From the NCBI RefSeq assembly GCF_030823405.1, contig NZ_JAUSXC010000001.1, forward strand, positions 3,207,001 through 3,271,000: DNA of 64,000 bases, written 5' to 3'. Positions 1,031 through 60,943 of the stretch are shown here, in pieces. Position 1 is the stretch's first letter, and each line of letters begins with the position of its first letter. The position numbers and the translations under genes were made by a program. Under the pieces are notes generated by a model that saw only the letters and a program-made list of their open reading frames with translations, did no database searches and was not told where the DNA came from. This DNA comes from Chryseobacterium ginsenosidimutans. Lineage in GTDB: Bacteria; Bacteroidota; Bacteroidia; Flavobacteriales; Weeksellaceae.

Positions 1031-1180
1031 ATGAAAAATGTAAAGAAAATCTCAAGAGAACAAATGAAAAGCATCTCAGGAAGCGGAATTATCAGAAACT
1101 GCTCCAACAAATGCTGTCCGGACGACGGAAGACCAAGATGTCCGGGACTGATTTGTCCGGCTGTTATCTGTCCGCAATAA
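1031..1180 (+). CDS. 49-aa Cys-rich double-glycine-leader peptide (bacteriocin-like precursor)
   Basis: Short reading frame ATG 1031 to TAA 1178-1180. The first 19 residues form a charged leader ending KISREQMKSISGSG. The remaining 30 residues hold six Cys (24, 28, 29, 37, 42, 47) and are rich in Pro and Gly. The leader shares the pattern [L/I]SR-x-x-[I/M]-K-x-ISG with the peptide at 57416-57601, which also has six Cys after its leader. Such leaders are typical of precursors exported and cleaved by peptidase-containing ABC transporters; Chryseobacterium genomes carry many, annotated as bacteriocin-like. No transporter or modification enzyme is nearby. A strong hairpin terminator follows directly, so it is probably monocistronic. 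Activity is unknown. Confidence 0.75.
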   Translation: MKNVKKISREQMKSISGSGIIRNCSNKCCPDDGRPRCPGLICPAVICPQ

Positions 1181-8527: not shown

Positions 8528-8542
8528 TTCTATATTATTAAC

Positions 8543-8637
8543 TAGCCCCGATTGTAGCGGCATCCTTTTTTGTTGCGGCCGGAGCGAAGCGGAGGCCGTA
8601 ACAAAAAAGATATAGCGGAAAGCGGGATTAAGCTCCT
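8543..8637. repeat. REP-like dispersed repeat, copy 1 (95 bp)
   Basis: Starts TAGCCCCGAT and ends GCTCCT. The core is a 16-bp hairpin (8565-8580 with 8594-8609) around the loop GGAGCGAAGCGGA. A second 95-bp copy at 11381-11475 differs at seven positions. The right end overlaps the purM stop codon by two bases. I recall similar elements as common in flavobacterial intergenic DNA, but that is memory rather than a search. Confidence 0.8.
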
Positions 8638-11340: not shown

Positions 11341-11380
11341 GGTGGTTATTGTGTATGATTAAAAAGAACGACAAATACCC

Positions 11381-11475
11381 TAGCCCCGATTGGAGCGACA
11401 TCCTTTTTTGTTGCGGCTGGAGCGAAGCGGAAGCCGTAACAAAAAAGATATAGCGGAAAGCGGGAAATAGCTCCT
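11381..11475. repeat. REP-like dispersed repeat, copy 2 (95 bp)
   Basis: Same length and ends as copy 1 at 8543-8637. In the stem the pair C8580-G8594 of copy 1 is replaced by T11418-A11432 here, a compensatory change that preserves pairing. Like copy 1, it lies between two minus-strand genes. Confidence 0.8.
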
Positions 11476-57383: not shown

Positions 57384-57415
57384 AAGAGATTGTAAAAATT
57401 ACAATCTCTTTTTTT
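57384..57415. terminator. Bidirectional terminator after gcvT
   Basis: AGAGATTGT and ACAATCTCT pair around a 7-base loop, with A and T runs. The T-run leads directly into the stop codon of the minus-strand peptide at 57416. Confidence 0.9.
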
Positions 57416-57601
57416 TTATCTGCAAATACAGCAAAGCGATCGGTCGGGAGTACAAATATCTCCTTTTCCGGGAGTATTTGAAACGACTCCGCCTGCGCCT
57501 CCACATAACAAGTTGCAAGAAGCAGGTGGTACAATTCCTCCGCTGATTCGTTTTATATCTGTTCTGCTTAAGCTTTTGATCTTCTGAATTTTGTCTATCA
57601 T
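57416..57601 (-). CDS. 61-aa Cys-rich double-glycine-leader peptide (bacteriocin-like precursor)
   Basis: A small protein whose leader (residues 1-22) ends SLSRTDIKRISGG, a canonical double-glycine site. The 39-residue core holds six Cys (29, 33, 50, 57, 58, 60) and a Gly-rich stretch (CGGAGGVV). The leader matches the peptide at 1031-1180 in the pattern [L/I]SR-x-x-[I/M]-K-x-ISG, and both cores have six Cys but otherwise differ. Export and cleavage by a peptidase-containing ABC transporter is expected, but none is encoded nearby. Two longer overlapping frames in the same place show no such features. A perfect -7 element lies upstream. Confidence 0.8.
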   Translation of the reverse strand: MIDKIQKIKSLSRTDIKRISGGIVPPASCNLLCGGAGGVVSNTPGKGDICTPDRSLCCICR

Positions 57602-57623: not shown

Positions 57624-57631
57624 CAAATATA
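57624..57631 (-). promoter_or_regulatory. -7 element of the second leader peptide
   Basis: Reads TATATTTG on the minus strand, 22 bases upstream of the ATG at 57599-57601. No -33 box at the expected distance. Confidence 0.5.
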
Positions 57632-59540: not shown

Positions 59541-59547
59541 CAATACA

Positions 59548-59602
59548 AAAGGAAATGGTGTTCTTCCTTACCCAACCGCCTTCAAAAGCTGATGACGCCT
59601 GA
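59548..59602 (+). ncRNA. Fluoride riboswitch (crcB motif) aptamer
   Basis: The conserved elements occur in order. AGGAA/TTCCT (59550-59554 and 59564-59568) is the P2-like stem enclosing ATGGTGTTC. The single strand AACCGCC (59574-59580) follows, then GCTGATGACGCCT (59588-59600). GGTGTTC of the loop can pair with GACGCC to make the pseudoknot that defines this class. It lies directly upstream of a CLC-F exporter gene, the classical target. Confidence 0.92.
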
Positions 59603-59632
59603 TTATAAGATTATTAACAGTAATTAATCAGG
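59598..59632 (+). promoter_or_regulatory. Candidate expression platform of the fluoride riboswitch
   Basis: CCTGATTA (59598-59605) is fully complementary to TAATCAGG (59625-59632). The first three bases belong to the aptamer pseudoknot strand, and the partner lies seven bases before the clcF ATG. Mutually exclusive pairing would couple fluoride binding to start-site accessibility. Confidence 0.55.
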
Positions 59633-59638
59633 TAAATT

Positions 59639-60943
59639 ATGTCTAAACTTCAACGAAATTTCAGCAGTAAAATAAAATTTCAAATAAATTTTTTCTTTAG
59701 AAAATATCCGGCTTTACCCTATATTTTTAAATGGCTTTTCATCAGTCTTATCATTGGAGCTTTTTCAGGAACGGCCTCTGCAGGTTTTTTACAATCTTTG
59801 GAATGGACAACCCATTTCAGAGAAAATCATATTTGGATAATCGCTTTTTTGCCCGTTGCCGGATTTCTGATCGGACTTTTATATTATTACTTTGGAAAAG
59901 ATGTCGAAGCAGGAAATAATTTGCTGATAGATACTATTCACGATCCAAAAAAAATTATTCCTTTCAAGATGGCTCCTTTTGTATATTTGGGAACTATTGT
60001 AACTCACTTTTTCGGAGGTTCGGCAGGCCGTGAAGGAACTGCACTTCAGATGGCAGGAGCAATCGCAGATCAATTGAGTAATCCTTTAAGGCTTGATAAA
60101 AGTGAAAGAAAAATATTAATTATTTCGGCTATTGCTGCAGGTTTCGGATCTGTTTTTGGAACACCTTTGGCCGGAGCGATTTTCGGACTGGAAGTTTTTT
60201 TGATAGGAAAAATTCGTTACAATGCCATTTTTCCGGCTTTTGCTTCTGCAATTTTTGCAGATTGGGTGACGGATCTCTGGAAGGTAAAACATACACACTA
60301 TCATATTGATTTTATTCCGAAACTTGAATTCTTGCCTGTTTTATATAGTATTTTAGCCGGAATTATATTTGGGATTTGTGCCGCAGCCTTCAGTAAAATG
60401 ATGCATTCAGTTAGTTCTGCTTTTAAATCTAACATAAAATATCCTCCACTCCGTCCTGTAATTGGCGGAATTATTGTTGCTGGTGCTGTTTTTTTGATGG
60501 GAACAACAAAATATATCGGTTTGGGAATTCCAACGATCTTAGAAAGCTTTGAAAAACAACTTCCTTTGTATGATTTTGCTTTAAAAATGATCTTTACTAT
60601 CGTTACGCTTTCAGCAGGCTTTAAAGGTGGTGAAGTAACGCCTTTATTCTTTATTGGTGCGACTTTGGGAAGTGCTTTATCATTGTTTATTCCTCTGCCT
60701 TTCGGTTTGTTAGCAGGAATGGGATTTGTCGCAGTTTTTGCAGGGGCAACCAACACTCCACTTGCCTGTATGATGATGGGAATTGAATTATTCGGGGCAG
60801 AAAGTGGTGCTTATATTGCAATTGCCTGCATTGTATCTTACTTATTATCAGGAAATAACAGCATTTACATGAAACAAAAGATCGGTGAAGCAAAAAATCG
60901 TCGATTTGAAAATCTTAATGATAAAAGTTTTCATGATTTATAA
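59639..60943 (+). CDS. clcF: CLC-type fluoride/proton antiporter (CLC-F)
   Basis: A 434-residue CLC-fold exporter with about 10-12 helices. The gating glutamate segment GSAGREGTALQMAG has E132. The usual GSGIP chloride motif of canonical CLCs is replaced by AGNNLLI (about 91-97), a trait of the fluoride-specific branch. Later motifs GSVFGTPLAGAIFGLEVF and GFKGGEVTPLFFIGATLGSA are present. A fluoride riboswitch immediately upstream strongly supports a fluoride-expelling role. It has no partner gene downstream. Confidence 0.93.
   Translation: MSKLQRNFSSKIKFQINFFFRKYPALPYIFKWLFISLIIGAFSGTASAGFLQSLEWTTHFRENHIWIIAFLPVAGFLIGLLYYYFGKDVEAGNNLLIDTIHDPKKIIPFKMAPFVYLGTIVTHFFGGSAGREGTALQMAGAIADQLSNPLRLDKSERKILIISAIAAGFGSVFGTPLAGAIFGLEVFLIGKIRYNAIFPAFASAIFADWVTDLWKVKHTHYHIDFIPKLEFLPVLYSILAGIIFGICAAAFSKMMHSVSSAFKSNIKYPPLRPVIGGIIVAGAVFLMGTTKYIGLGIPTILESFEKQLPLYDFALKMIFTIVTLSAGFKGGEVTPLFFIGATLGSALSLFIPLPFGLLAGMGFVAVFAGATNTPLACMMMGIELFGAESGAYIAIACIVSYLLSGNNSIYMKQKIGEAKNRRFENLNDKSFHDL

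Follow-up and report, generated by a model that had tools for sequence, protein, structure and literature searches.

A 64,000-nucleotide stretch of the Chryseobacterium ginsenosidimutans genome (contig NZ_JAUSXC010000001.1; C1:3207001-3271000 of a 4.30 Mb genome in a single contig), hereafter the window, contains an open reading frame (ORF) for a small precursor peptide, P0001. Six Cys residues (29, 33, 50, 57, 58 and 60) follow a leader that ends in a double glycine (Table 1). An earlier sequence-only reading had described this frame and its Cys as found here, giving no strand; it lies on the minus strand. With a probability of about 0.75, P0001 gives rise to a mini-peptide that carries disulfide bonds and is secreted; it would be cleaved and exported in trans by a distant group of genes, the hub, which encodes a C39-peptidase ATP-binding cassette exporter (C39-ABC), an HlyD adaptor and a VKOR-DsbA fusion protein as the presumed source of the disulfides.

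The leader of P0001 resembles those of other peptides of the same genome. A hidden Markov model (HMM) of 15 same-genome leaders, P0001 left out, ranks P0001 second among the 170 window ORFs with ATG start and 30-120 amino acids (E 0.003, 11.1 bits); the sole ORF above it is the 1031 peptide (P0002), a member of the training set. Over the last 14 leader positions the log-odds score of P0001 is 23.1, that of the next ORF -1.3, and shuffling residues 2-30, 100,000 times over, yields no score as high as that of the P0001 leader. By all three measures, the leader that the sequence-only reading saw as common to both peptides is shared beyond chance. Leaders of the C39/PCAT type carry Gly-Gly, Gly-Ala or Gly-Ser at -2/-1 and hydrophobic residues at -4, -7 and -12; P0001 has G, G, I, I and L at these positions. 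Counted by alignment column, -4, -7 and -12 are hydrophobic in 43/43 P0001 homologues, with Gly at -2 in 42 and at -1 in 42; a first count had used a regular expression that itself required a hydrophobic -4, and the recount gives the same 43/43. The hydrophobic register is likewise present in 22/22 precursors of the own genome, with the cleavage site set by eye. In the C39 peptidase LahT150, a groove is reported to seat leader residues -4/-7/-12 (PMC6363468).

The NCBIfam model NF047798 (leader_Chryseo, "bacteriocin-like protein") finds 15 loci over its cut-off in this genome, and 22 matches, some of them chance, at E <= 10. A model of 24 leaders including the P0001 family, partly circular because its training set contains the leaders it recovers, gives 21 leaders at E <= 0.01; one further leader (E 0.34) looks real by eye, which brings the number, with divergent ones such as P0001, to 21-22. 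The genome-wide leader scan proposed earlier thus returns many loci, and the dispersed family stands; the case named as fatal to it, only two loci and no peptidase transporter, fails because the genome holds 15 or more leader loci and one C39 peptidase. The 1031 peptide exceeds the NF047798 cut-off (E 3.4e-8, 33.5 bits; cut-off 23.5), is matched by NF047792 (CCPGW family putative bacteriocin) below cut-off only; 144 of 173 genus genomes contain a match to it at E <= 0.001. Cores of the own-genome leader peptides look different from each other and contain 2 to 8 Cys, so that six Cys each is true of P0001 and the 1031 peptide but is no rule of the family. Most leader genes are single, as had been supposed, but three are found within the hub or close to it (at 23.2, 27.5 and 27.7 kb), two of these between VKOR and exporter, and two further pairs adjoin at 471 kb and 3.03 Mb. 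The motif TANNTTTG occurs in 7 of 24 upstream regions (two of the 24 probably being no genes) versus 1.9 in base shuffles, with 3 of 2000 shuffles reaching 7. Among 296 sampled genomes of the order, the NF047798 family occurs in 27 of the 29 shown from the same genus versus 4 of all others, and leaders number up to 49 or more per genus genome (E <= 0.01; 49 is the scoring limit).

Exactly one C39 peptidase of the genome exceeds the PF03412 cut-off (E 1.9e-36). It is unlinked to P0001, the distance to the hub being ~1.06 Mb by the shorter way round if the contig is circular. The VKOR-DsbA fusion gene (VKOR + Thioredoxin_4) stands upstream of the C39-ABC gene with two precursor genes in between, and HlyD completes the set. 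In 7 of the 25 hub loci read, homologues of the 1031 peptide adjoin the hub VKOR gene, which ties the unlinked leader genes to the hub. Gene counting and these hub-linked homologues in relatives strongly suggest that one hub serves the scattered precursors in trans, as the sequence-only reading had proposed for one exporter; the single C39 peptidase is observed, and the service itself is inferred. No lanthipeptide or radical-SAM enzyme is recognised among the hub ORFs scanned, no genome-wide search having been made. As a lead only, the N-terminus of the VKOR fusion may be a C39-like leader-binding domain: 6 of 24 match PF03412 at E <= 1 (best 0.029), hhalign places it in register with C39 at a non-significant probability of 0.3% (E 0.23), and Foldseek returns PCAT1 at E 3.1e-3 but with a template modelling (TM) score of 0.15.

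Five hub peptides (L101:5512-5883, L102:3190-3366, L103:4435-4611, L111:4712-4888 and L113:5803-5976) possess the Cys order C-C-CC-C-C, which, as a sequence pattern, is like that of inhibitor cystine knots.

Leaders (E <= 0.01) are accompanied by the VKOR fusion (E <= 1e-10) in 160 of the 173 genus genomes, and both are missing in 9; two genomes have leaders only (G099 with one, weak; G137 with four) and two VKOR only (G052, whose match is weak, and G190, whose assembly is fragmented). The Fisher value of 9.6e-12 is inflated because of kinship among the genomes. A gcvT tree covering 71 of these genomes shows 6 changes each in leader trait and hub trait, and of 5 independent pairs differing in the hub, leaders agree in 3, oppose in 0 and show no difference in 2. 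The co-occurrence is supportive of shared service, not conclusive.

P0001 itself matches 70 genus genomes at E <= 0.001; with G136 (weak, mainly leader), G102 and G157 (partial) left out, 67/173 possess near full-length homologues, the G004 copy being interrupted by an internal stop. All six Cys are invariant among 43 intact homologues aligned. Pooled dN/dS (nonsynonymous over synonymous substitution rates; 51 close, non-independent pairs) is 0.18 for the core, 0.33 for the leader and 0.22 for the whole of P0001. A spurious ORF, which the shortness of P0001 and its want of a name in any curated protein model might suggest, is refuted by this conservation and has next to no probability. At 43/43 homologue loci read (~1.5 kb each side) gcvT or an ArsC-family gene is present, and both in 36. 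At all 20 loci read from genomes without P0001, the thioesterase gene is kept along with gcvT and the ArsC gene, and nothing that convinces as a leader peptide stands in place of P0001. Judged from these sequence comparisons, the P0001 core is kept under purifying selection at one site and is not diversified. The sequence-only reading saw diverged cores, which is correct within the genome; between species the core is conserved beside gcvT and the ArsC-family gene, which corrects that claim for P0001 and weakens an arms-race reading.

Four HMM matches of 2.8-4.4 bits in P0001-less loci (one between ArsC gene and gcvT, L256) were dismissed, since none shows a double glycine following a leader, and matches of P0001 in the distant genomes G062 and G068 (E 0.003-0.006, inside frames of 683-684 amino acids) were dropped as chance. 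At one locus (L071; G132:C1, ~1414429-1415094) the P0001 gene is tandemly duplicated and part of gcvT separates the two copies, which hints at the way in which copies originate.

Table 1. Positions of the P0001 gene, its parts and other features (window coordinates unless a contig is given)
Feature	Position	Strand	Remarks
P0001 precursor peptide ORF, 61 aa	57416..57601	-	ATG 57601-57599, TAA 57418-57416
P0001 leader, residues 1-22, Gly-Gly end	57536..57601	-	hydrophobic I19 (-4), I16 (-7), L11 (-12), I8 (-15)
P0001 core, residues 23-61	57419..57535	-	C-x3-C-x16-C-x6-CC-x-C; predicted mature peptide if cut behind Gly22
Perfect 11-bp inverted repeat, T run on each side	57385..57409	none	read from sequence
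TATATTTG	57624..57631	-	22 nt before the P0001 ATG
P0002 (1031 peptide), second window precursor, 49 aa, six Cys	1031..1180	+	NF047798 leader
C39-ABC exporter	G000:C1:27956-30148 (own genome)		far outside window
Fluoride riboswitch	59542-59608
ClC-type channel gene	59639-60943
Flavo-1 RNA (RF01705), first	8540-8633
Flavo-1 RNA (RF01705), second	11378-11471

The inverted repeat is a probable two-way terminator common to gcvT and the P0001 gene. On the other side of the gene, TATATTTG is weakly like the consensus of the Bacteroidetes -7 element; a TTG at the usual spacing upstream of it was not found.

According to the proposed mechanism, the C39 domain of the single exporter of the genome would bind the 22-residue double-glycine leader of P0001 and cut behind Gly22; the 39-residue core would then pass through the ABC exporter and the HlyD adaptor out of the cell, and the hub VKOR-DsbA fusion would join the six invariant Cys into disulfides. 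The same hub would serve, in trans, about twenty further genes with such leaders elsewhere on the chromosome. For P0001, we infer cleavage, export by this particular hub and disulfide formation from the comparisons above.

Several observations weigh against this route. NF047798 does not match P0001 even at E <= 10, leaving its cut-off of 23.5 bits unreached, and the leader of the P0001 family is about four residues longer at its N-terminus. No leader peptide is seen in 3 of the 25 hub loci read. No homologue of the P0001 core was found in the five hub loci searched with P0001, the best match there (L090, E 3e-5, 36%) being mostly leader. In G193, the VKOR gene and a P0002 homologue are ~150 kb away from the C39 genes listed, and the hub is therefore not always a single operon; other genus genomes contain up to 7 C39 peptidases, so that service by one exporter is plain only in the source genome. 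G137 possesses its four leaders without VKOR fusion or C39 peptidase at the thresholds used, and the sign test on the five independent pairs gives p 0.25. The structure model of P0001 is poor (predicted local distance difference test score, pLDDT, 58.7) and was set aside.

The missing NF047798 match and the longer leader would fit a cytoplasmic Cys-rich, perhaps metal-binding peptide that is no substrate of the hub and whose leader likeness is convergent. So would the outcome of the database searches: P0001 has no Pfam match and no relevant NCBIfam match, and the family profile matches no PDB sequence at E <= 1. PHROGs, searched with P0001 or its family, yielded nothing of use (matches at E 0.09 and above were ignored in these database searches). 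NF047798 nevertheless matches 28 of the 43 homologues at E <= 10 (best 4.3e-5), the -4/-7/-12 register is kept in all 43 and the shuffles never attain the leader score, which makes a cytoplasmic peptide improbable. Because NF047798 misses P0001 yet matches these homologues, P0001 is, by sequence, a divergent relative of that family and no formal member.

The role of P0001 outside the cell is the least certain part of the explanation. A secreted signal, or another conserved extracellular effector passing through the shared exporter, comes a little short of an even chance, because purifying selection keeps the core at one site, with no immunity gene recognised alongside. Double-glycine signals of pneumococci such as BriC use a shared exporter (PMC7595303). 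To a signal one may object that no receptor or regulator gene is recognised among the flanking ORFs listed (three flanking genes scanned), that P0001 is absent in 103/173 genomes at E <= 0.001 and that the G004 copy is broken. A classical arms-race bacteriocin against kin bacteria is a somewhat less probable reading. It agrees with the NCBI label of the leader family and with the patchy distribution of P0001, near full-length in 67/173 genomes and gone at the 20/20 gcvT loci read from genomes without it. Bacteroidetocins have a double-glycine leader and four Cys, together with thiol oxidoreductase and C39-ABC; they are reported to kill Bacteroidales and to have no obvious immunity gene in their region either (PMC6671954). 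Against a bacteriocin stand the core dN/dS below that of the leader in the pooled, non-independent pairs, the one core common to many species, and neighbours that are gcvT, an ArsC-family gene and a thioesterase.

Several known families and systems come close to the one proposed here. NF047798 and NF047792 share the leader register and describe a genus-wide family as here; NF047798, however, misses P0001, the P0001 core family is without a model, and the NF047798 listing is silent on exporter and dispersal. Bacteroidetocins likewise combine a double-glycine leader and paired Cys with a thiol oxidoreductase and a C39-ABC exporter, but with one precursor beside its own exporter, a 15-residue leader and four Cys (PMC6671954); here precursors are many and unlinked, with 2 to 8 Cys, and VKOR and DsbA form one protein. 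By the bacteroidetocin pattern a precursor shares one locus with thiol oxidoreductase and C39-ABC, which P0001 does not, whereas the hub does have a disulfide-forming enzyme beside the exporter. The same source reports that deletion of the five-transmembrane, thiol oxidoreductase or peptide gene attenuates bacteroidetocin activity, that it is abolished by insertions in the four-gene region and that these four genes are enough in E. coli (PMC6671954). Prochlorosins and synechococsins also have many scattered precursors and one machinery (PMC10783134); they employ Nif11-type precursors and the LanM-type ProcM, where disulfides are expected in the present system. Pneumococcal ComAB/BlpAB are C39-ABC exporters serving several double-glycine peptides from different loci (PMC7595303), as proposed here, but in a Gram-positive and for few peptides. 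The leader family (NCBI), bacteroidetocin-like export and dispersal with shared machinery as in prochlorosins and pneumococcus are thus known already. VKOR-DsbA is not known to be part of the pneumococcal network. The P0001 core family, the fused VKOR-DsbA hub tied to dispersed precursors and the genus-wide scale look new. That such a system is little described, as the sequence-only reading held, is too broad for the leader family and its precedents; for the system itself, no paper or bench study was found in the open-access literature, a weak absence.

Cis-regulatory RNAs of the type DUF805b (RF02914) stand just before leader genes at L002, L006, L013 and L015 of the own genome and at hub loci L049, L089-L091, L094, L101 and L102. 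The own genome has 4 elements in 20 loci scanned (one hub-linked, three unlinked; L011 left out); in 12 hub loci, 10/10 elements stand 18-25 nt before a leader-peptide ATG. None was found in the P0001 locus. A pattern scan of genome contigs gives at least 83 sites (80 of 116 stretches), mostly in Bacteroidota. DUF805b as a switch specific to the leader family was rejected, because many sites precede unrelated genes and the P0001 locus has none. No literature on DUF805b by name was found in open access. Elsewhere in the window a fluoride riboswitch immediately precedes a gene for a ClC-type channel, which may export fluoride, and two Flavo-1 RNAs occur.

In its widest form, to which we give an even chance, the explanation is a genus-wide secreted mini-protein platform: one hub of C39-ABC, HlyD and VKOR-DsbA oxidase, whose N-terminus may bind leaders, would make disulfide-rich peptides from a changing, chromosome-wide set of precursors that numbers from one to at least 49 in a genome, some knottin-like (C-C-CC-C-C) and part of them behind DUF805b, with P0001 as a conserved member outside any arms race. 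If true, one exporter-oxidase pair would supply a widespread genus with a whole library of natural peptides rich in disulfides, and the exit of the products of many unlinked "bacteriocin-like" genes would be explained. It would also offer one gene whose deletion tests all these peptides together, and a bacterial secretion route for cystine-rich mini-proteins.
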